From assembly GCA_029561145.1 (NCBI GenBank), contig JAKQJM010000009.1:1-42120 (forward strand): a stretch of 42,120 bases of DNA, given 5' to 3'. Shown here one piece after another: positions 1,864-42,114 of the stretch. The notes below the pieces were generated by a model. That model ran no database searches, was not told where the DNA came from, and worked only from the letters and a program-made list of their open reading frames with translations. Within the stretch, counting starts at the first letter, position 1. Each line of letters starts with the position of its first letter. This stretch comes from Pseudomonadota bacterium. GTDB lineage: Bacteria; Pseudomonadota; Gammaproteobacteria; Xanthomonadales; Rhodanobacteraceae. Position numbers and translations under genes: made by a program.

Positions 1864-3405
1864 ATGTTCAAGTCGCTCGCTGCATGGCTGGCCGGATGCG
1901 TACTTGGCAGCGGAATCGCGGCAGCCGCCGTCCCGGGGGATTTCCTGTTCCGCAATACCGCACCCGACAACACCGGGATGCCGTATCGGATCTTCGTGCC
2001 GCCGGGCTACAACGCGACACTGACCTATCCGCTGATCGTGTTCCTGCATGGCGCGGGCGAGGCCGGCACGAACAACACCGCGCAACTCAACAACAATGCC
2101 AATGGCGCGCTGAAGCTGATCAGCGACGCCAACCTCGCGATCCAGCCGGTCTTGATGGCAGCGCCGCAGTGTCCGACCAACAGCAGTTGCTGGGGACAGG
2201 CGACGCAGCTCGTGCGCCTCAATGCGATGCTTGACCAGATCGCCGGCGAATTCCATATCGATGCCGACCGCGTACACGTGACCGGCTTGTCGATGGGCGG
2301 CAATGGAACCTGGGAGTTCGTCAGGAACCGACCGGATCGATTCGCCAGCGCGGTGCCGATGTCCGGTTATGGTGGCGGCTCGGCAACGGCGCTCAGCGGT
2401 ATCCCTTTCTGGTACTTCCATGCGATCGATGACGGCACCGTCGGCGTGGATGGTTCGCGCAGCCAGGTCAACGCGCTGCGCGACGCGAATGCACGCGTGA
2501 TCTATACCGAGTACGCGACCGGAAACCACGGCATCTGGTCGAACGCCTACGCTACACCGCTGCTGTTTCGCTGGATGATGGCGCAACGTCGCGGCCTGCC
2601 GAGCCGGGTCACGCCGCCGGTCGTGCGCATCGAGCAACCGACCGGTGAACCGACCTGGACGACCGACCTCGACCAGACTCCGCTTTCCGGCGTGGTCGAC
2701 AATGACGGTCAATCCGTCACGTCGGTTGCGTGGCTGCGGAAGAACGGCCCGAGTGGTATCGCATCCGGCACGACGATCTGGAACACGCCACCGATAGCGC
2801 TGCTGTTGGGCATCAACGACCTTCGCGTGACCGCAACAGGAACCAGCTACTACGCGCCCTATGGTGGGGCAACGACATTCAACGCGAGCCTGCGCGCGAA
2901 CCGGGTCAGCTCGATTCCCGATCCTGGCGACACGGTCATCGCAATCAACTCGGCCGGCCCGAGCTACGCCGCTGTCGATGGCACGAATTTCATCGCCGAC
3001 ACGTTGTTCGAGGGCGGCAGCACCCAGGTCTCGGCCCATACGATCGCGAATACCGCCGATGGCACGCTGTACAACACCTGGCGCTGGGGAAACTTTGCCT
3101 ATCGCATTCCCGTGGCGAATGGGCGGTATGAGGTCTACCTGCACTTCGCCGAGACCTACAACACCGCCGTCGGACAGCGGCGCTTCAATGTATCGGTGCA
3201 GGGGACTCCGCGGCTGCAGGAATTCGATATCGCTGCGGAAGCCGGTTTCGATACCGCGCTGGTCAAGCGTTATGACGTGGACGTGACAACAGGCGAGATC
3301 CTGATCGAAGTCAGCAACGGCAGCATTGGCAATGCGCGCGTCGATGCGGTGCGCGTCGTGCTGTCGGCCGATCGCATTTTCATCTCGGGCTTCGAGTCGC
3401 CATGA
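1864..3405 (+). CDS. Secreted alpha/beta-hydrolase esterase with malectin-like domain and GFE tail
   Basis: A 513-residue exported protein. Residues 1-22 are a signal peptide. Residues 35-245 resemble the esterase/PHB-depolymerase (LpqC, CE1-like) fold: oxyanion motif HGAGE at 62-66, nucleophile GLSMGG with Ser143, Asp at 189/190 in HAIDDGTV, and His222 in GNHGIW. Residues 250-345 look like an Ig-like linker. Residues 357-500 match a malectin-type carbohydrate-binding domain (INSAGPSY, HFAETY, FNVSVQG, DAVRVV). The protein ends with RIFISGFESP, a tail shared with the proteins at 11691 and 39224. The start is set by GGGAGGA 4 nt before the ATG. The combination suggests an extracellular deacylase acting on decorated polysaccharide; that role is inference, as is the substrate. 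It stands alone, with no neighbouring polysaccharide-degradation genes. Confidence 0.88.
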   Translation: MFKSLAAWLAGCVLGSGIAAAAVPGDFLFRNTAPDNTGMPYRIFVPPGYNATLTYPLIVFLHGAGEAGTNNTAQLNNNANGALKLISDANLAIQPVLMAAPQCPTNSSCWGQATQLVRLNAMLDQIAGEFHIDADRVHVTGLSMGGNGTWEFVRNRPDRFASAVPMSGYGGGSATALSGIPFWYFHAIDDGTVGVDGSRSQVNALRDANARVIYTEYATGNHGIWSNAYATPLLFRWMMAQRRGLPSRVTPPVVRIEQPTGEPTWTTDLDQTPLSGVVDNDGQSVTSVAWLRKNGPSGIASGTTIWNTPPIALLLGINDLRVTATGTSYYAPYGGATTFNASLRANRVSSIPDPGDTVIAINSAGPSYAAVDGTNFIADTLFEGGSTQVSAHTIANTADGTLYNTWRWGNFAYRIPVANGRYEVYLHFAETYNTAVGQRRFNVSVQGTPRLQEFDIAAEAGFDTALVKRYDVDVTTGEILIEVSNGSIGNARVDAVRVVLSADRIFISGFESP

Positions 3406-11690: not shown

Positions 11691-12974
11691 GTGCCCGATT
11701 CCCATCTGCCCCCTTCGTGGCGCCGGCTCGTCTTCTGCGTGATGGCTTCGGCAGCCTCCGCGCGCGCTGCAGTTCCGACTTGGCTCGACGTCGAGCTCCA
11801 GGCGCGCAGCAACCTGCTGGTCAACGACCCGGGCTGGAACCTGCCACCCGGATCATCGTTCAACAGCATTTCGGCCAGCATCAACAACGACGGCAAGGTG
11901 GCGTTTCCGGTGCAGATCGTGCCGATCGACGGCGATCAGTCGAATACCGGCGTGGGCGTGTGGTCCGGTTCGCATGGAGTCGGCGGGATCGTCGCCTTGC
12001 ATGAGCCTCCCATCGATGGCATTTCGGATCGGGTCAGCATCAATGCCAGCGGCGATGTCGCCTATTACACCTACCAGGATGGCAGCAGCTATCGACTGCG
12101 CCGGTTCGATGCGCAGACTTCGCTGTCGGCGATCGTCAGCACGCTGCCACTGACCCCGACTTCGTTCAACGGTCACGTCATCAACGATTCCGGCGTGATC
12201 GGCTATCGCGCAGGTCTTGGGTCCGGTTACGGGCTTGCCTCGACCGGCGCGGGCAGTTCGCTGCTGCACATCGTCGATACCAATGTCGAGGCCGGGCCGT
12301 ATGCCTACATCTACACGCCGGCGATGAATGCGCAGCGCCTGATCGCGAGCAAGGTCAGTATCGGCGATCTCAATCACAACGAGATCCGCAGCTTCGCCAG
12401 CAATGGAAGCTACACGACGCTTGCGGTCGACTCGGCGACCCATGCCGCATCTCCGTACAACCGCTTCGACAATGGCCTCGCCTACAACGAATCCGGACAG
12501 GTGGCGGTCGCGCTTCGCCTCGAGGCAGGCAATGTCCGCGCGATCTATCGCTTTACGCCAAACGGCGGTGGTGTCGATGCTGTCGAGATTGCGCGCGTCG
12601 AGGCCAGCGGCACGATCCGCGAGATCGATTCGTTTTCCCCTGCGATGAACAACAGCGGACTCGTCGTGTTCCGCGCAAGAGATGCCAACGGCCAGGCCAT
12701 CTACACGGGCGATGGCACTTCGCTGGCCCGCGTGATCGGCAAGGAAGATGCAGTTGTCACGGATCTCGGCGCGGGTCGCATCGGCCAGCACATCGACAAT
12801 CCATCCTCCTGGCCGATCTTCAGCGGTGCGCCCGCGGTCAACGATTCCGGTGATATCGCGTTCGTCGCGGCACTGCATCCGGATGGCAACACCCAGGTTG
12901 AATGGGGAACGGGCGTGTTCGTCGCCTATGCCGCTGGCGACGCGATCTTCGAGAATGGCTTCGACGATCCCTGA
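11691..12974 (+). CDS. Secreted beta-repeat protein with C-terminal GFD tail
   Basis: A 427-residue exported protein of unknown function. A GTG start at 11691 gives a signal peptide (basic PPSWRR, hydrophobic LVFCVMASAASARA, cleavage near ARA-A); an ATG at 11742 would remove its basic region. The mature protein is built of roughly 50-residue repeats, each with an N-x-x-G-x-(V/I)-A-(F/Y)-like signature: INNDGKVAF, INASGDVAY, INDSGVIGY, YNESGQVAV, MNNSGLVVF, VNDSGDIAF. This pattern is typical of beta-rich, propeller-like surface proteins (choice-of-anchor type). The C terminus is DAIFENGFDDP, the tail also found on the proteins at 1864 and 39224. No ribosome-binding site of good quality precedes the GTG. 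I assign no activity. Confidence 0.8.
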   Translation: MPDSHLPPSWRRLVFCVMASAASARAAVPTWLDVELQARSNLLVNDPGWNLPPGSSFNSISASINNDGKVAFPVQIVPIDGDQSNTGVGVWSGSHGVGGIVALHEPPIDGISDRVSINASGDVAYYTYQDGSSYRLRRFDAQTSLSAIVSTLPLTPTSFNGHVINDSGVIGYRAGLGSGYGLASTGAGSSLLHIVDTNVEAGPYAYIYTPAMNAQRLIASKVSIGDLNHNEIRSFASNGSYTTLAVDSATHAASPYNRFDNGLAYNESGQVAVALRLEAGNVRAIYRFTPNGGGVDAVEIARVEASGTIREIDSFSPAMNNSGLVVFRARDANGQAIYTGDGTSLARVIGKEDAVVTDLGAGRIGQHIDNPSSWPIFSGAPAVNDSGDIAFVAALHPDGNTQVEWGTGVFVAYAAGDAIFENGFDDP

Positions 12975-13127: not shown

Positions 13128-15971
13128 ATGGCTTTGGTTCCAGGTCAACGCTACATCTCGAATGCCGAACCCGAACTCGGACTCGGCACCCTGATCAGGA
13201 TCGAGGGACGCAGCGTCCAGGTTCTCTACGCGACCGCAGGTGTGTTGCGCCAATACGCCGCGCACAGCGCGCCGATCGCGCGCGCGGAGTTCCGCATCGG
13301 GCAGAAGGTCGCCGGCAAGGGCATCAGTTTCACCATCGACCGGATCGACGAAGAAGAAGGCCTGCTTGTCTATCACGGTGGCAGCAAGACGCTCAACGAG
13401 GCCGAGCTCGATGACACCCAGGCGATCTCGCGCGCTGATGAACGCCTGATTTCCGGGCGCGTCGATCGTGCGGATCGTTTTGATTTCCGCCAGGAAGCCC
13501 TGCTGCGTCGTGCCCGCGCACTACGTTCGCCGGCCTGGGGACTGGAGTCGGCGCGTGTCGATCTGATCGCGCACCAGTTGCGCGTGGCCGAGATCGCTGC
13601 CGCGCGCCAGCCGCTGCGTATCCTGCTGGCCGATGAGGTGGGACTCGGCAAGACCATCGAAGCCGGCATGATCCTCGCCCGCCTGCTGGCCAGCGGACGG
13701 GCCGGCCGCGTGCTCGTCCTCCTGCCCGAAAGCCTCGTCTACCAGTGGTTCGTGGAACTGCTGCGGCGCTTCAACCTGCAATTCTCGTTGTTCGACGAGG
13801 AACGTTGCGAATCGATCGAAACCAGCGATCCGGGGCGCAATCCGTTCCAGGATGAGCAACTGATCATCGCCAGCATCGGCTTCCTCAGCGGCTCGACCAA
13901 GCGCGCGACGCAGGTGGCCGAGGCCGGCTGGGATCTGGTCATCGTCGACGAAGCGCATCATCTGGCCTGGACGCCCGACTCGGCCAGTGCCGAATATGCA
14001 CTGGTAGAAATCCTGGCAGCGCGAACTGCGGGCCTGATCCTGCTCACCGCCACACCCGAACAACTCGGTCGCAGCGGGCATTTCGCACGCCTGCGCCTGC
14101 TCGATCCAGCGCGCTATCACGATCTCGACAGCTATGTCGCCGAGGCCGATGGATATGCCGACCTGTCGGCGATCGCCGGGAGGCTCAGCGACGGCGAGAC
14201 ACTGTCGACAGGCGATGTCGAGGAGTTGTCGCGGCGCCTCGGCGAAGACCCGCAACTGGCCAGCCTGCTCGCCGGACCGATGAATGCCGCGGCGTCGAAT
14301 ACCCTGCTTGACGCACTGATCGACCGGCACGGTACCGGCCGCGTCATGTTCCGCAATCGTCGTGCCCAGGTCGGCGGTTTTCCGCATCGCGTGCCGAAAC
14401 TGGTCACGCTCGATGGCAGCGAACTCGACGATGCGCAGCGACAGCACCTGCTGGCCGAGTTTCATGCAGATCTGCAAAGCAAGGCCCCCGAGATCGAACT
14501 CCCGTATGCGAATGATCCGCGCCTGACGTGGCTGCTCGGCATGGTCGATCAGCTCGCCGCCGAGAAGTTCCTGCTGATCTGCCGCAGCCAGGCCAAGGTA
14601 CTCGCGCTGGAGGAGGTGTTGCGCACGCGAAGCGGGATCAAGGTCGCGCGCTTCCACGAAGGCATGAGCCTGCTCCAGCGCGACCGCAATGCGGCGTACT
14701 TCGCCGACGCCGACGGCGCAAGACTGTTGCTGTGCTCGGAAATCGGATCGGAAGGCCGCAATTTCCAGTTTGCCCACCATCTCGTGCTGTGGGACCTGCC
14801 GCTCGATCCCGACCTGCTCGAACAGCGAATCGGTCGTCTCGACCGCATCGGCCAGAAGCACGACATCATCGTCCACGCCTGCGCTTTTTCCGGCACCGCG
14901 CAGCATGCCCTGCTGCGCTGGTACGACATCGGCCTGGATGCGTTCCGCGGCAGTCCTTCCGATGGCCGCGAGTTGCTCAAGCGCTACGGTGAACGCCTGG
15001 TTGCGTTGGCCGAGCAGCACGCCCATGGTGGCGAAGATGCCGATTCGGAGCTCGATGCCCTGATTGGCGAGAGTCGCGCAACCCACGAGGAACTGTCGGC
15101 CCTCGTCAATGCCGGACGCGACCGCCTTCTCGAACTGGCCAGCGCGCGGCAGACCAACTCCGACCGCTTGCGCCGCGCGCTGGCCGACGCTGACGCCGAC
15201 GCCGAGAACGATGAATTCATCCTGCGCATGTTCGAACAGTTCGGCATCGAGAATGAGGAACACGCGCCGCGCACGGTCGTCCTCGATCCGGAATACCTGA
15301 GCACCGATGGTTTCCCCGGCCTCAAGGACGGCCCGCAGCAAGTCACCTTCGATCGCGGCATCGCACTGGCGCGTGAAGACCTGCCGTTGCTGCGCATGGA
15401 CCATCCGATGGTCAGCGGCGCGATCGACCTCCTGCTCGAAGGCGAGCATGGCAACGCCTCGTTTCTGGTCGATGATGGCCAGCCCGCACGCACCGCCCTG
15501 CTCGAATGCATCTTCGTGCTGACCTGCGTCGCCGATCGCAAGCTGGCCATCGAACGCTATCTGCCACCGTTGCCGCTGCGCATCGTCGTCGATACGCGTC
15601 TGCTGCCACGCCACGACTACCAACCCGGCGCGGAGTGCGTGAAGCGCTCTACCGAACGTGCGATCGAGTATTCGCGCTATCGCAAGCTGCTGACCAAGCT
15701 GGTCAAGCCGATGCTCGCACATGCCGAAACCCTGGCACGCGAACGCGCACAGATCGAGATCGGCGCGGCATTGAAATCGATCGAACGCGAACTTGGCGAT
15801 GAGCATGCGCGCCTGGTCGCGCTCGCGCGCGTCAATCCCGCGGTACGGGCAGAGGAAATCGAGGCGATCGATGCAGAGCTCGAAGCCTTGCGCACCGCAA
15901 TTCCGCAGGCCGCGCCGCGACTGGACGCGGTGCGATTCATCTGCAGCGCGGATTTTCTCAATCTGGCCTGA
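13128..15971 (+). CDS. rapA: RNA polymerase-associated ATPase RapA (SWI2/SNF2 family)
   Basis: A 947-residue Swi2/Snf2-type ATPase that binds RNA polymerase and promotes its recycling. The N-terminal Tudor-like region begins PGQRYISNAEPELGLGT, matching the start of known RapA proteins, so I set the start at the ATG at 13128 although the frame is open from 13044. Motif I is DEVGLGKTIEAG (Lys175), motif II is DEAH at 274-277, TATPEQ is motif III, and motif VI is EQRIGRLDRIGQ. The C-terminal RapA-specific domain ends near the stop. The length is close to the usual 950-970. A GATAATC element lies at 13091, 31 nt before the ATG. The gene converges on accD. A very long open frame on the opposite strand (13521-16073) is a shadow. 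Confidence 0.97.
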   Translation: MALVPGQRYISNAEPELGLGTLIRIEGRSVQVLYATAGVLRQYAAHSAPIARAEFRIGQKVAGKGISFTIDRIDEEEGLLVYHGGSKTLNEAELDDTQAISRADERLISGRVDRADRFDFRQEALLRRARALRSPAWGLESARVDLIAHQLRVAEIAAARQPLRILLADEVGLGKTIEAGMILARLLASGRAGRVLVLLPESLVYQWFVELLRRFNLQFSLFDEERCESIETSDPGRNPFQDEQLIIASIGFLSGSTKRATQVAEAGWDLVIVDEAHHLAWTPDSASAEYALVEILAARTAGLILLTATPEQLGRSGHFARLRLLDPARYHDLDSYVAEADGYADLSAIAGRLSDGETLSTGDVEELSRRLGEDPQLASLLAGPMNAAASNTLLDALIDRHGTGRVMFRNRRAQVGGFPHRVPKLVTLDGSELDDAQRQHLLAEFHADLQSKAPEIELPYANDPRLTWLLGMVDQLAAEKFLLICRSQAKVLALEEVLRTRSGIKVARFHEGMSLLQRDRNAAYFADADGARLLLCSEIGSEGRNFQFAHHLVLWDLPLDPDLLEQRIGRLDRIGQKHDIIVHACAFSGTAQHALLRWYDIGLDAFRGSPSDGRELLKRYGERLVALAEQHAHGGEDADSELDALIGESRATHEELSALVNAGRDRLLELASARQTNSDRLRRALADADADAENDEFILRMFEQFGIENEEHAPRTVVLDPEYLSTDGFPGLKDGPQQVTFDRGIALAREDLPLLRMDHPMVSGAIDLLLEGEHGNASFLVDDGQPARTALLECIFVLTCVADRKLAIERYLPPLPLRIVVDTRLLPRHDYQPGAECVKRSTERAIEYSRYRKLLTKLVKPMLAHAETLARERAQIEIGAALKSIERELGDEHARLVALARVNPAVRAEEIEAIDAELEALRTAIPQAAPRLDAVRFICSADFLNLA

Positions 15972-20674: not shown

Positions 20675-23266
20675 TCAGCCGAGTTCGCTGATCAGCCTGC
20701 GTGCTTCGTCCTGCTGCGCAGGACCGCCTTCGGCAAGGACTTCCTCCAGCATCGAGCGCGCACCTTCCGGGTCGCCCATGTCGAGATAGGCCTTGGCGAG
20801 GTCGAGTTTGGTGCCGATCGCATCCTCGCCGGCGAAGAACTCCTCGTCGGACACGTCCGCGGCATGACCAGGTGCTTCGAGGTCTAGGTCGACCGATACG
20901 GGTGCGCGCGGGCTCGCTGCCGCCGGGATCGGGGGCAGGTCAAAGCTGAACGAAGTATCGGAACTGGCCGGCTGCGTATCGCGCACCTCGCCCAGGTCAA
21001 AGCCCGAGACATCGATCGCGGGCATGGCCGTGGTCGCCATGGTTGCGTCATGCGCACTGCGCTGCGAGGGCAATGCCGCTTCTTCGTCGGCAAAATCCGG
21101 AAAACCCGTCGCGTCTCCGGTGCTCGGCTCATCGAAGTGATAGCTGCCCGGAGCATCGAGGTCTGCCATGTCGCCCGCCAATGCGTTGCGATTGCTGAAC
21201 AGCGGATTGTGCGGAACCAGTTCCTCGCCCATCGCCCGCACTTCACGCCAGTCGGGCTGATTCGGATCCGCGACGTAGGCATACATGTCTTCGGCCGCGG
21301 CCTCGAACTTGCTGCTCGCGCCCTGGGCGTAATACAGGCTCAGCAGTTCGAGGTGTGCGCCGGCATTGCTCGGATCGGCCTGGACCTGCTCGATCAATGC
21401 CTGCTCTTCGGCCTCGGCATCATCGCCAAGAGCCGGGCTTCCAATCGGGGAATCGCCGAACGCATTGGCGATCGAGGTGCGTGCCGGAGCCGGAACCGGC
21501 TTGCGCTTGCGCAATCCGAACAGACCGGCCACGACCAGCAGCAGTCCTCCGATGCCGGCAGCACCCAATACCCACGGTTGCATGTACCAGGGCTCTGCCG
21601 ATACGGCGGGCTTGGTCGGAGTCGGCACGGGCTTCTTGGCCGCCGGTTTTGGCGCGGCCTTCTTGGGCTCGGCCGCAGTCGAAACGGGCTTGTCCAGTGT
21701 CGATGCCGGCGTACTGGCTGTCGGCGTGGTCAGCGTCGTCGTCGAAGCGGAATCGCCACGGGTTGCCGGCGGCGCAGTCGCCGGGGCAGTCGTGTCGCCA
21801 GCAGCAGGGCTTGCCGCAGGCGTGGTGACGGAAGGCGCGGCTGCAGGCGTTGCTGGCTTGCCGTCCGAATTGCCCCAGATATCGTCCTTGGTGATCTTTC
21901 CATCTGCCGCAGCAGCAGTCGGCGCGCTGGATTTGGCCGGCGTTTCCGGAGTCGGCGTCGCCACAATGGTTGCGTCCGCAACGGGGGCAACTGTCGCTGT
22001 CGCCTTCGGCGCGCTTGCTGCCGCAGCAGCGGCCTTCGCACCCTGGTCCTGCAGCTGCTTGAGCTTTTCGCGCATCTCGGCCAGTTCGGTGTTCTGCAGG
22101 CTGATCAGCTTCTCGTTCTTGCCCTTGATGTCCTCAAGATCCTTGAGCCGCGATTTGAGCTCGCCGGACTCCTGCTCCTTGCTGGTCAATGCCTCTTTCA
22201 CACGAGCCAGCTCGGCCTTGGTGGCCGTATTCCCCGAATCTCCGGAGCGCCCGCCGCTGGGACGATCCGCGGAATCCTGACCCGCCTTGCCTTCGCGTGG
22301 CGGAACCAGGGCAAGGCGTTCGTCGGAAGTCGCCGTCACGGTGGAGCTCGCAGCGCTACTGCGCGTGGCTGCAGGCGTCGTATCCGCGACGAGGGTCGGC
22401 GCACTGCTGACGTTTCCACGCCATTCGTCGATCTGCGCACGCACCGCTGCTGCAGCATCGCGCGCCGAACCGCTGGCCGCCACTTCATCGGCGGATGGGA
22501 TGCGCAACACCGCGCCGCGCTTCAGCGCATTGATGTTGTCCTTGAAAAACGCGTTTGGATTGCTCTTCAGCAAGGCGAGCATCATCTGGTTGATGCTGAC
22601 TTGTTCGCCCGGTCGGGTCGCCCGGGCGATTTCGCCCAGCGTCTCGCCCGCTGCCACCGGGCCATACTCGTTGCCGCCCGCCACTCGCGGAGCGGGTTCG
22701 GACTTCGGTGGAGCTGCGGGCTTGGCCGGAGCCGATGCCTTGGCCGGAGCAGCGGCAACGGCGGGCGGCGCCTTTTCAGCAGGCTTGGTCGAGGGCAGCG
22801 GTTGCGCGGCAGCGCGCTCAGGCTCCTTTGCAGCGACTGCAACCGCACTGGATCCTTTTACCGCCGGCGCCATGACCGGCGGATCGAGCAGGACCGTGTA
22901 TTCGCGCAGCAAGCGGCCTTTTGGCCAGTTGGCCTCGAGCAGCAAGCCGACGAAGGGTTCGCGGACGATCTCCTGACTGGTCACCTTGATCACCGGTTCG
23001 CCCCGGGCATTCTTGCCGAGACTGAACTGGACCGGGACACCGATACTGGCCCGGTTCATGCCGACACGCTCGAAATCGTCGTCGGAAGCGAGCTGGACGA
23101 TCAGTCCCTCGGCCTCGCCGGGCGCTGACTGGATGATCGGGATCTCGGCAACCAGAGGTTGATTCAGGCCAGACTGGACCTGGATCGCACCCAATCCGAG
23201 TGCAGACGCATCGGTCGCCCCCAACGCGAGCGCGATGGCCAGCGACAATTGCAGCGGTCGTTTCAT
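20675..23266 (-). CDS. fimV: FimV-type polar landmark/peptidoglycan-binding protein
   Basis: An 863-residue inner-membrane protein of the FimV family, which organises type IV pili, twitching motility and polar localisation. Domains in order: signal peptide 1-22; N-terminal FimV domain about 23-130 (GLGAIQVQSGLNQPL, ANWPKGRLLREYTVLLDPP); Ala/Pro linker; LysM about 200-257; coiled coil about 348-411; low-complexity Thr/Ala/Pro region 412-560; a transmembrane helix at about 565-585 followed by RKRK; cytoplasmic TPR-like region 615-670; acidic stretch; and the conserved C-terminal FimV motif 817-863 (LDLAKAYLDMGDPEGARSMLEEVL). GGGGAG precedes the ATG by about 8-10 nt. It sits between asd and truA, as in other gammaproteobacteria. 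Confidence 0.95.
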   Translation of the reverse strand: MKRPLQLSLAIALALGATDASALGLGAIQVQSGLNQPLVAEIPIIQSAPGEAEGLIVQLASDDDFERVGMNRASIGVPVQFSLGKNARGEPVIKVTSQEIVREPFVGLLLEANWPKGRLLREYTVLLDPPVMAPAVKGSSAVAVAAKEPERAAAQPLPSTKPAEKAPPAVAAAPAKASAPAKPAAPPKSEPAPRVAGGNEYGPVAAGETLGEIARATRPGEQVSINQMMLALLKSNPNAFFKDNINALKRGAVLRIPSADEVAASGSARDAAAAVRAQIDEWRGNVSSAPTLVADTTPAATRSSAASSTVTATSDERLALVPPREGKAGQDSADRPSGGRSGDSGNTATKAELARVKEALTSKEQESGELKSRLKDLEDIKGKNEKLISLQNTELAEMREKLKQLQDQGAKAAAAAASAPKATATVAPVADATIVATPTPETPAKSSAPTAAAADGKITKDDIWGNSDGKPATPAAAPSVTTPAASPAAGDTTAPATAPPATRGDSASTTTLTTPTASTPASTLDKPVSTAAEPKKAAPKPAAKKPVPTPTKPAVSAEPWYMQPWVLGAAGIGGLLLVVAGLFGLRKRKPVPAPARTSIANAFGDSPIGSPALGDDAEAEEQALIEQVQADPSNAGAHLELLSLYYAQGASSKFEAAAEDMYAYVADPNQPDWREVRAMGEELVPHNPLFSNRNALAGDMADLDAPGSYHFDEPSTGDATGFPDFADEEAALPSQRSAHDATMATTAMPAIDVSGFDLGEVRDTQPASSDTSFSFDLPPIPAAASPRAPVSVDLDLEAPGHAADVSDEEFFAGEDAIGTKLDLAKAYLDMGDPEGARSMLEEVLAEGGPAQQDEARRLISELG

Positions 23267-23368
23267 GAAAAGGGCTCCCCGAATACGATGAAGATGAGCA
23301 ATGGGCCGCCGTCTACTTTACGCCGGCCAAAGCTCGAAAATGCCTTATAACACAACCGTAACTATAGA

Positions 23369-39223: not shown

Positions 39224-41932
39224 TCAGGGCACTTCGAAACCATCCTGGAAAATGATGTCGATCGGACCGCTCGGCAATGGCCAGGCCCAGGCACCACGGC
39301 CACGCGTGAACACCGCCAGCGTCGTGAAGCCACGGTCGACCGCCATGTCCCAGATCATCACGCGCGGCAGGCCATTCTCGAAGCGATACCAGACCGGAGT
39401 GGCCGCGCTGACGTCATCGGTGTAATAGAGACCCCAGTCCGTGCCGACGAAGACCTGGTTCGGCACCAGTGGATTGACTGCCACCGCATTGGCCGGAATG
39501 TTCGGCAGATTCCCGCTGATGTCGCGCCACGTGAAGGTCGTGCAGTTGTTCTGGCAATTGAACTGGTAGACATGGCCGGGCGTGGTCGGCGTGTTCTGGT
39601 CAAAGCCTCCGAGCACGGCATAGCCGACCGCAGTCGCTGCTGGATTGGCCGCATCGCCCACGTCGACAGTCACGTCCATCACCGGTCGGTTCGGCAGCAC
39701 GGCGTTGCCATTGGTCAGGTTGACCCAGGTCGCCGAGTTGGCCACGCCCTGGTTCATTCCGTAACCGAGTTGCACATTGCCGTCATTCGTTCCGACGACG
39801 ACGACACTCGGCGTCTTGGTCGCATGCGCGAGCTGGTTGATGAACGAACGATCGGCCAGGGTGCCTTTGGTCAGGTTCGGACTGTTCGCATACCAGCTGC
39901 TGCTCGGAATGGCACCGACCAGGGTTTCCCAAACGCGGTTCGTGCCGCCGAGCATGTAGCTGCAACCGAGCGCCGTGCTGCATCCACTGCCGGCCACGTC
40001 GAGCGCGCCATAACGATAGAGCTCGACAGGCATGACGAAGCTCAGCGTATCGCCGCCCCATCCGGAGCTTGCCGAGCTGATGCCGCCATTGGGGCCCGTC
40101 TGCGATACCACGAGCGCGCCGTTCTGGCTTGAGTAGTACCAGCGCAACTCATTGACCGGCTCGATGCGCGTGTAGATGCCGTCACCTCCGTTTCGCACCG
40201 TCCATTGCACGGGTGCCGGATTCGTATTGGTCCAGCGCGCCCATTCGCTGCCATTGTCCTGCGCACCGGCGCTGGCGCCGGGCGATACCGCCGTGGCGAA
40301 GTTGGCGGTGATGTCACCGGAGTAGAGCTCGATCGAGCCGATGGTCTGGTTGAGCGAGATGAAGGTCGGCCGATTCGCGGTACTGGAGCCTCCCGAGCCG
40401 AACTGCGCATTGGCCGTGTAGAAGACGCCGCCGTCGCTGCCACTCAGGACCTTGTTGCTGTCGTAACCGCCAAGGCCGTTCGGCAGGTAGGCCCGCGCAT
40501 GGTGATCGACGTGGACGTTGCCGTTTCCGTAGCCGCAGGTGATGTCCTGGAACGTCGTGCCGCCGTTGACCGATCGATACATGTCCACGCCGCTGAGCAA
40601 CACGGTTTCAGGATTGTTCGGATCCACCGTGAGTCCGGCGTCGTACCACATCTGCGTTCCGCCATTGGCGGCGTTGCTGCAGCCACCCGCCTGGATTCCC
40701 GTATTGGTCGAACGTTGCGTCCAGGTATCGCCGCCGTTGTCGCTGCGCCATACGCCGAGCACGTTGCTGTTCGTCGCATTGGCGCCCAATGCATAGAGGG
40801 TCGCCGGCTGGCTTGGCGCCTCGGCGATCTCAAGGCGTCCGAGCAGTTTTCCTGTCGGGTTGCCGTCTCCGGTTCCGGCCGGGAAACCATTGTTGAGCAA
40901 GGTCCAGTCACCGACTGCCGGGCAGCCGCTGGCCGGCAGCGTCGCACGATAGACGCCATTCGCGCCGAGATTCGCGAGATCCGGCTGTACCGTCGTCGGC
41001 AAGCCGCGCGTGCCGACTGCCGCAAACACGCGGGTTGCGCCCGCGCCGGCGTTTTGCACGATGAGCCCGGTGATGTCCTGGCGCTGGCTGCTGAATGCAT
41101 TGGTATAGCAGGGACCCGTCCAGTCGACGCCTGCATTGTTGGAAACGAACAATCCGGTCTTGGTGCCAACGATGATCGTGTCGGTATGGTTCGGATCGGT
41201 CCTGACCTTGCCTACCGCCTGGTATTGCGGGAAGCCGAGCGTCGCTGACGGCGGATAGAACGGATTGAACACGTCCTCGCCCAGCACGGTCCAGCTCTCA
41301 CCCTTGTCGACGCTCTTGAGTACACCGGACGAACCGAACGAGAACGAGCCGTAGCGGAGATCGCCCGTGCCGAGGTAGATCACGTTCGGATTGCTCGGCT
41401 CGATGTAGATCTCGCCGATTGCCGTGCTCGAGATCGCGCGATCACCGGTCACGTTGCGCCATGTGGTACTGGCGCTGCAGCAGTTCGTCGTCTTCCACAG
41501 GCCGCCGCCATCCGAAGCGGCGAACACGGTGTGCATGCCGTTGATGTCAGGACCGGTGGGATCGACAGCGACTACATTCGTGCGACCCGAGACCACCGTA
41601 CCGCTGTTGAGCAGCGGTGACGGACCGAGGAACGTCCAGCCATCCGGCGCGAGTGTCAAAGGCGATTCGGCCGAGCGTTGGTAGCTCTTTTCACCAGCGG
41701 GTACCCGGGAAGCAATCAGCGTGTCGGTGGACTTCGCTGCCTCGTACCAGGCCGGACTGAAATTCATCGTCGGATAGGAGACGCGGTGCGCCCAGTAGTC
41801 GCCCGCAATCGGCTTGGCCCAGGGCCCGACGCTGTCCGCATCGACTTCCTCGTGCCCGGACCAGGCGAAGACCGCCGCGCCCACTGCCGCCGATACCAGA
41901 ACAAGTGATGCCGCAACGTGGCGAAACTTCAT
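39224..41932 (-). CDS. Large secreted BNR/Asp-box propeller protein with C-terminal GFE tail
   Basis: A 902-residue exported protein. The signal peptide covers residues 1-24 (FRHVAASLVLVSAAVGAAVFA). The rest is made of many sialidase-type BNR/Asp-box repeats (for example KSVDKGESWTVLG, FVSNNAGVDWTGP, WRSDNGGDTWTQRS, YRSVNGGTTFQDI) and blades of a propeller-like fold like that of exo-alpha-sialidase or sortilin-type proteins; no sialidase arginine triad is evident, so I assign no enzyme activity. It ends PIDIIFQDGFEVP, the tail shared with the proteins at 1864 and 11691. The ATG at 41932 begins the signal peptide, with GGGGA 6-10 nt upstream; the frame is open from 42112. A GAAA-capped hairpin (41949-41962) lies in its leader. 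Confidence 0.88.
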   Translation of the reverse strand: MKFRHVAASLVLVSAAVGAAVFAWSGHEEVDADSVGPWAKPIAGDYWAHRVSYPTMNFSPAWYEAAKSTDTLIASRVPAGEKSYQRSAESPLTLAPDGWTFLGPSPLLNSGTVVSGRTNVVAVDPTGPDINGMHTVFAASDGGGLWKTTNCCSASTTWRNVTGDRAISSTAIGEIYIEPSNPNVIYLGTGDLRYGSFSFGSSGVLKSVDKGESWTVLGEDVFNPFYPPSATLGFPQYQAVGKVRTDPNHTDTIIVGTKTGLFVSNNAGVDWTGPCYTNAFSSQRQDITGLIVQNAGAGATRVFAAVGTRGLPTTVQPDLANLGANGVYRATLPASGCPAVGDWTLLNNGFPAGTGDGNPTGKLLGRLEIAEAPSQPATLYALGANATNSNVLGVWRSDNGGDTWTQRSTNTGIQAGGCSNAANGGTQMWYDAGLTVDPNNPETVLLSGVDMYRSVNGGTTFQDITCGYGNGNVHVDHHARAYLPNGLGGYDSNKVLSGSDGGVFYTANAQFGSGGSSTANRPTFISLNQTIGSIELYSGDITANFATAVSPGASAGAQDNGSEWARWTNTNPAPVQWTVRNGGDGIYTRIEPVNELRWYYSSQNGALVVSQTGPNGGISSASSGWGGDTLSFVMPVELYRYGALDVAGSGCSTALGCSYMLGGTNRVWETLVGAIPSSSWYANSPNLTKGTLADRSFINQLAHATKTPSVVVVGTNDGNVQLGYGMNQGVANSATWVNLTNGNAVLPNRPVMDVTVDVGDAANPAATAVGYAVLGGFDQNTPTTPGHVYQFNCQNNCTTFTWRDISGNLPNIPANAVAVNPLVPNQVFVGTDWGLYYTDDVSAATPVWYRFENGLPRVMIWDMAVDRGFTTLAVFTRGRGAWAWPLPSGPIDIIFQDGFEVP

Positions 41933-41948
41933 TGATTGTCCCCAGGAT

Positions 41949-41962
41949 CCGCCGAAAGGCGG
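41949..41962. other. Small GAAA-capped hairpin upstream of the BNR protein gene
   Basis: CCGCC-GAAA-GGCGG is a perfect 5-bp stem with a GAAA loop on the plus strand, just before the Shine-Dalgarno region of the gene starting at 41932. It would lie in the leader RNA or be an operator-like inverted repeat. Confidence 0.35.
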
Positions 41963-42083
41963 AGTCGACGGATGGTAAAGATCTTGCGCAGATCCGTCCA
42001 TGTGACGAATGGCGGTATGTGCCACCGGCAAACCGGTACGCCGCCAGTACCGCAAACCGACAAAGGTCGGGCGATTCGTGGGC

Positions 42084-42114
42084 GGATGCCGGCAGGCAAT
42101 TCCTGCCGGCATCC
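42084..42114. terminator. Strong inverted repeat at the right edge
   Basis: A perfect 13-bp stem (42084-42096 with 42102-42114) with a CAATT loop. Neither side has a T tract, so it may be an atypical terminator for a gene beyond the edge or another structured element upstream of the BNR gene. Confidence 0.5.

Follow-up and report, generated by a model that had tools for sequence, protein, structure and literature searches.

Do unrelated exported proteins that finish in the same short peptide carry a common address, and if so, what reads it? The question arises from a stretch of 42,120 nucleotides in a genome of the family Rhodanobacteraceae (contig JAKQJM010000009.1; hereafter the window, meaning the whole stretch analyzed), in which three such proteins are encoded. 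It bears on type II secretion, which exports folded enzymes from many Gram-negative bacteria, and for which the nature of the mark carried by the cargo is an open question. Recognition mechanisms are called unresolved, and unified signals lacking, in the accessible portion of PMC10128026, while a structural signal has been inferred from the absence of a linear universal one, according to the available text of PMC12369372.

Three exported proteins in the window end in the same motif

A sequence-only reading of the window had placed a shared tail, D-x-I-F-x-x-G-F-[ED]-x-P, at the ends of three proteins. All three tails are located exactly where that reading put them, each running up to a stop codon:

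1864-3405, forward strand: exported protein with a PHB-depolymerase-like esterase followed by a malectin domain, ending in the tail
3370-3402, forward strand: tail DRIFISGFESP of the esterase/malectin protein, stop codon directly after
11691-12974, forward strand: exported "choice-of-anchor" NxxGxxAF-repeat protein (TIGR05002 over the cut-off), ending in the tail
12939-12971, forward strand: tail DAIFENGFDDP of the NxxGxxAF-repeat protein, stop codon directly after
39224-42112, reverse strand: exported propeller-like protein, ending in the tail
39227-39259, reverse strand: tail DIIFQDGFEVP of the propeller-like protein, stop codon directly after

The NxxGxxAF-repeat protein also resembles the MXAN_5453 MYXO-CTERM-anchored family (NF045523, 196 bits, under the cut-off of 500), and the propeller-like protein gives a 38-bit match, under the cut-off, to F510_1955 glycosylhydrolase. 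The true start of the latter open reading frame is probably a methionine some 60 codons inside, ahead of a hydrophobic stretch. A degenerate DNA pattern for the motif matched exactly three times in the window, even with one mismatch allowed, compared with a mean of 0 on 100 shuffles of the same sequence.

The motif recurs at protein ends throughout the genome

Across the whole genome (3.6 Mb, 149 contigs) the pattern IF..GF[DE] gave 51 matches and its reverse none, and a profile of the tail gave 60 matches at E values up to 10, a far wider occurrence than the three proteins of the window. The match is C-terminal in 43 of the 51, the protein ending 7-21 residues from the isoleucine (itself counted); the assertion that the motif always stands at the very C terminus is thus true of the window and fails genome-wide. 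Aligned, the 43 C-terminal tails have the consensus D-x-I-F-x-[NDH]-G-F-[ED], with N in 15, D in 14, H in 7, and other residues in 7 at the sixth position, and E in 23 and D in 20 at the ninth. The aspartate at position -2 is present in 40 of the 43, although it lies outside the pattern used for searching.

Among the eight matches that are not C-terminal, two lie soon after a signal-peptide-like stretch (loci L032 and L035), two within exported proteins (a subtilase in L035, and a protein in L044), one at a contig end (L001), and three are without support as tails (L017, L031, and L036). The protein in L044 (1975-3303) has, further on from its internal copy, a hydrophobic stretch and a basic end, an arrangement resembling a tripartite anchor. 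Of 343 proteins, drawn largely from stretches picked for containing the motif, 39 carry [IVL]F..GF[DE] close to the end (9,261 residues), and the other 124,263 residues hold six copies. A census of copies returned 238 C-terminal, 6 N-terminal, and 15 other, a ratio biased by 117 loci that were fetched with a pattern containing the stop codon, the genome-wide proportion given above being the unbiased figure. The six copies that follow a signal-peptide-like stretch, as called by a hydrophobicity rule, do so at a distance of nil to about 25 residues (the two loci just named, with L051, L308, L316, and L353). Tandem copies 27-30 bases apart were found in L134 and L196, and at positions 1176939 and 1176966 of contig C1 of genome G308.

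Tail proteins are mostly exported and otherwise unrelated

The sequence-only reading had described a tag common to exported proteins with unrelated domains and had called for a check of its enrichment among proteins with signal peptides; the wider set of hosts bears out both points. Where the start of a tail protein was complete, a crude signal-peptide test, which permits alternative starts and is generous to both groups, was passed by 31 of 35; among the other genes of these stretches the figure was 112 of 270. Pfam assigned 37 families across 38 tail proteins, none of them to more than three, and the hosts include subtilases, M14 and M28 peptidases, endonuclease I, and a malectin protein. 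NCBIfam matches among the same 38 (E up to 0.001) comprised rhom_dep_M36 (4), choice_anch_Q (4), choice_anch_J (2), myxo_dep_M36 (1), and MXAN_5453 (1). Several host families are therefore named for GlyGly-CTERM or MYXO-CTERM anchors, so that their relatives elsewhere are named for another signal in the place of the tail.

The tail itself is short. All 43 C-terminal tails end 0-14 residues past the motif, a length that excludes a membrane helix, and the noted absence of a helix and a basic end, features of LPXTG, PEP-CTERM, and GlyGly-CTERM signals, extends to every one of them; on sequence (motif, helix, basic cluster) none of the 43 is of PEP-CTERM or LPXTG type. When the 43 tail peptides were compared with NCBIfam release 20 and Pfam at E values up to 10, no sorting-signal model was matched; two NCBIfam and two Pfam families each matched one or two members, in a scan where HMMER filters discard most weak matches. 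We found no description of the tail in the literature, as judged by titles and the beginnings of abstracts. In AlphaFold2 models the tail had a pLDDT below 50 and no secondary structure, both in a GSDH-type tail protein (mean pLDDT 66) and in the propeller-like protein of the window (mean pLDDT 56.5). These models, of modest quality and built from shallow alignments (7 and 4 sequences), hint that the tail may be disordered in both hosts.

The tail is almost certainly a real, recurrent, and portable tag. It probably acts in sorting.

Distribution of the tail in the class and the order

In a sample of the class, 24 of 276 genomes had any match to the pattern that includes the aspartate, and only the genome of the window had more than two. 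A sample of the order gave matches in 89 of 249 genomes, 61 of which had at least four (the threshold by which we call a genome tail-rich) and up to 78. Across these 249 genomes the presence and absence of the tail change sharply between related genera; within the family of the window (65 genomes of the sample), four genera have 16-61 matches each, and the remaining genera have none, apart from a single match in one case. When named genomes were scanned with a strict C-terminal form of the pattern, at least 117 stretches were returned. Among the 80 matches listed, 49 carry names that we take to belong to Lysobacterales: among the matches listed, Marinicella (22) and Lysobacterales (16), together with Rhodanobacteraceae, Dokdonella, Tahibacter, Pseudofulvimonas, Pseudomarimonas, Rudaea, and a Xanthomonas MAG. 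A further 27 of the 80 are MAGs named only as Gammaproteobacteria, as Proteobacteria/Pseudomonadota, or as Alcanivoracaceae, and 4 have other names.

A second type II secretion system occurs in nearly all tail-rich genomes

The sequence-only reading had envisaged a gene whose presence matches that of the tail. A search for GspD in 44 chosen genomes found a shorter secretin in all 22 that bear tails (in pieces in G396), nearly always beside the usual Xps-like one, with G381 showing the short one alone. In a quick tree of 58 GspD sequences (support 94; two fragments from G396 left out), one group, hereafter clade A, consisted of 21 rows, one from each of 21 tail-bearing genomes, and the Xps-like group held rows from tail-bearing and tail-less genomes. 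The start rule shortened L246, L249, and L254, which are all clade-A rows, and the first two of them were left out of a larger GspD tree.

A profile of clade-A GspD was then applied to the 249 genomes of the order sample, where it scored above 700 bits in 94 and identified 7 partial sequences with a similar score per column. Clade-A GspD was present in 59 of 61 tail-rich genomes and in 42 of 188 others (Fisher p 5.6e-27, uncorrected for kinship). Within the family of the window, it was found at 700 bits or more in all 8 tail-rich genomes and in 1 of the 57 others, with G474 and G519 below that level at 631 and 640 bits. Of the genomes of family f2, two have clade-A GspD over 800 bits (G481 and G359, 876-882 bits) and are also the two with genuine tails, and the pattern matches in G364 and G459 of that family sit within other proteins. 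Tail-rich genomes are thus confined almost wholly to those with a second type II system.

The correspondence runs in one direction, so that the expectation of a matching gene stands in part: the second secretin is nearly constant in tail-rich genomes, but it also occurs in the 42 others, which have fewer than four tails and many of which have none. The larger tree places tail-less genomes inside clade A (genus g245 of family f166, family f163, some of f164, and G501), and the clade-A system is therefore not sufficient for tails. There are exceptions on the other side as well. No clade-A GspD was found in the tail-rich MAGs G320 (90% complete) and G334 (97%), or, at 1e-50, in four genomes with one or two C-terminal tails (G328, G360, G365, and G424). 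Independent contrasts on the clade-B GspD tree numbered five, which leaves the comparison underpowered, and gave three for, one against, and one tie (p 0.625). A tendency of tail genes to lie beside the clade-A operon, suggested on inspection, was rejected, as five tail genes lay near clade-A gspD where 3.5 were expected (p 0.28; no enrichment).

Membership of a type II system was judged by gspC, gspD, gspE, and gspF. In the genome of the window (L235), gspC, gspD, and gspE lie close together and score above the NCBIfam cut-offs; no gspF was seen in this 20 kb stretch. In L250, genes C, D, E, and F stand in a row (Pfam and NCBIfam), with GspC under the NCBIfam and over the Pfam cut-off, and FtsE- and FtsX-like genes follow directly after clade-A gspF (13574-15180), with a response regulator next. 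Similar clusters are present, among the loci listed, in L247-L249, L251, L253, and L254, and the order C-D-E-F-FtsE/FtsX recurs by clustering in other families, again among the loci listed.

The GspC proteins of nine tail-bearing clade-A genomes all matched T2SSC and all matched PDZ, the latter over the Pfam cut-off in five; one further GspC, from the tail-bearing G359, has PDZ below the cut-off. Nine tail-less clade-A genomes gave both domains in 9/9, with PDZ over the cut-off in six. The five genes that occupy the gspC position beside clade-B gspD match neither domain, one of them matching XpsN weakly. As PDZ occurs in clade-A GspC with and without tails, it marks the clade-A system and not tail use, and was discarded as a discriminating feature.

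How the tag could be read

We tentatively suggest that the clade-A type II secretion system, the likeliest candidate, may be the reader of the tag. Tagged proteins would cross the inner membrane by means of their signal peptides and fold in the periplasm, where the second type II system, with its clade-A GspD and PDZ-type GspC, would pick up the folded cargo through the exposed tag, perhaps by contact with the PDZ domain of GspC, and carry it across the outer membrane. What would be recognized is the nine-residue motif near a free end, which is usually the C terminus and sometimes a site soon after the signal peptide. Put in full, the proposal is of a linear tag for type II secretion, portable and functional at either end of a folded protein, with one of the two type II systems of the cell as its reader; this is a possible rather than a probable account of the data.

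The contact point is the most doubtful element. Classical PDZ binding is to the very last residues of a protein, and both the residues that follow the motif and the near-N-terminal copies count against binding of this kind. Because tail-less clade-A genomes have the domain too, a GspC PDZ contact appears quite unlikely. Signals that depend on such a domain are known, and the available text of PMC12369372 describes two of them: the Ig fold of VesB, which acts with EpsC in Vibrio and can be grafted onto a periplasmic protein, and the Fn3 domain of PelI, which acts with OutC in Dickeya. Should the PDZ contact hold, the tail would resemble them in that cargo is recognized by the PDZ domain of GspC; those signals, as far as that text goes, are structural and found in single proteins, whereas the tail is linear and common to dozens of proteins in one genome.

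If the clade-A system is the reader, the tag would represent a kind of signal new to an established secretion machine, and if the linear-tag reading is true, a genome sequence would directly give the cargo list of that system. As one genome has 43 C-terminal copies, and most of these organisms have a further type II system of another type to serve as an internal control, the cargo question becomes testable.

Alternative explanations and relation to known signals

The tag could instead be a site recognized by an enzyme that acts as sortases, exosortase, or rhombosortase do, either removing the tag or coupling it to a surface molecule, but here with no membrane helix. A close known system is that of GlyGly-CTERM and rhombosortase, where, in the portions of PMC3237569 and PMC13393428 available, many exported proteins are likewise alike in little but the C terminus, and the signal acts in concert with type II secretion in Vibrio. 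Some cargo families are also in common by NCBIfam name. GlyGly-CTERM, however, is described there as a motif followed by a transmembrane helix and a basic end, and the tail has neither of the last two; the accessible text of PMC13393428 adds that GlyGly-CTERM is not itself a type II signal and that a second signal is required. An enzyme of this kind would suit the anchor names borne by some host families elsewhere, as well as the short distance, a few residues in most tails, from the motif to the end. The copies near signal peptides and those inside proteins are hard to fit to it, and a motif that is tolerated at either end is more in keeping with recognition of a folded protein than with a cut-and-attach enzyme. 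Rhombosortase (TIGR03902) exceeded its cut-off of 84 in 3 of 44 genomes (G474, G147, and G325), all tail-less, and in 1 of 28 (G474). It fell just under in the tail-rich G381 (82.1 bits) and G418 (80.1), and was set aside as a partner, none being above the cut-off in the tail-rich genomes tested. We consider the enzymatic explanation somewhat unlikely.

In G474, a tail-less genome from the family of the window, gspD (contig C47, L284, 19990-21810) and the rhombosortase gene (22879-23331, 131.6 bits) are about 1 kb apart. The GspD of this genome is sister to clade-A GspD; it looks as if this lineage may pair a clade-A-like system with GlyGly-CTERM.

The CTD of type IX secretion is a folded domain of some 70-100 residues, known from Bacteroidota. 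It resembles the tail, as read here, in that proteins exported by signal peptides bear, at the C terminus, a signal that is not a membrane segment, with a machine of the outer membrane as reader (PMC12618676, from the part of the text available). In contrast to it, the tail has nine residues, is predicted to be disordered, occurs in Lysobacterales, and is sometimes near the N terminus; no CTD model appeared among the families listed for the tails, or among those listed for the hosts (the best 25 of 37 and 25 of 30).

Another explanation, which we regard as unlikely, is a retention or docking motif that would bind a surface component (a protein, LPS, or polysaccharide, perhaps through Ca2+) after exit by any route. 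It would suit a binding motif to have acidic and aromatic residues, to occur at either end, and to be doubled in tandem, as in L134 and L196; docking leaves unexplained the near-confinement of tail-rich genomes to those with a second secretion system. Even with a reader other than the clade-A system, a helix-free sorting tag that is absent from NCBIfam and Pfam would hint at the destination of many proteins so far annotated only as "choice-of-anchor".

It is very improbable that the hosts inherited the tail with a C-terminal domain common to them, of which it would form the closing structural cap. Such a cap would agree with the 4 of 38 hosts that match choice-of-anchor Q and with others that match beta-helix families, but not with the subtilases, peptidases, endonuclease I, and malectin protein that also carry the tail, with its predicted disorder in two hosts, or with the copies near signal peptides. 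A DNA or RNA element at gene ends, rather than a peptide, is scarcely credible: in its favor, the motif glycine is encoded by GGC in 8/43 cases compared with 197/445 for glycines that precede phenylalanine elsewhere in these genes (p 0.001), a residual bias, but all four glycine, three isoleucine, and both phenylalanine codons occur in the motif, no common sequence was evident by eye in the DNA flanking the 43 C-terminal tails, and genomes with AT-rich matches encode the same residues.

Possible regulators beside tail genes

The most widespread neighbors of tail genes, other than further tail genes, are a Ser/Thr kinase (11 loci: L059, L103, L106, L116, L152, L154, L196, L214, L222, L228, and L229) and an ECF-type sigma factor (8 loci: L106, L116, L133, L152, L196, L214, L228, and L229), both labels being read from sequence and not from a family search. 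They were considered as readers of the tag and put down to regulation instead; the recurrent kinase and sigma factor are possibly regulators. Similar kinase and sigma-factor genes are found near clade-A gspD in L236, L240, L241, L249, and L250.
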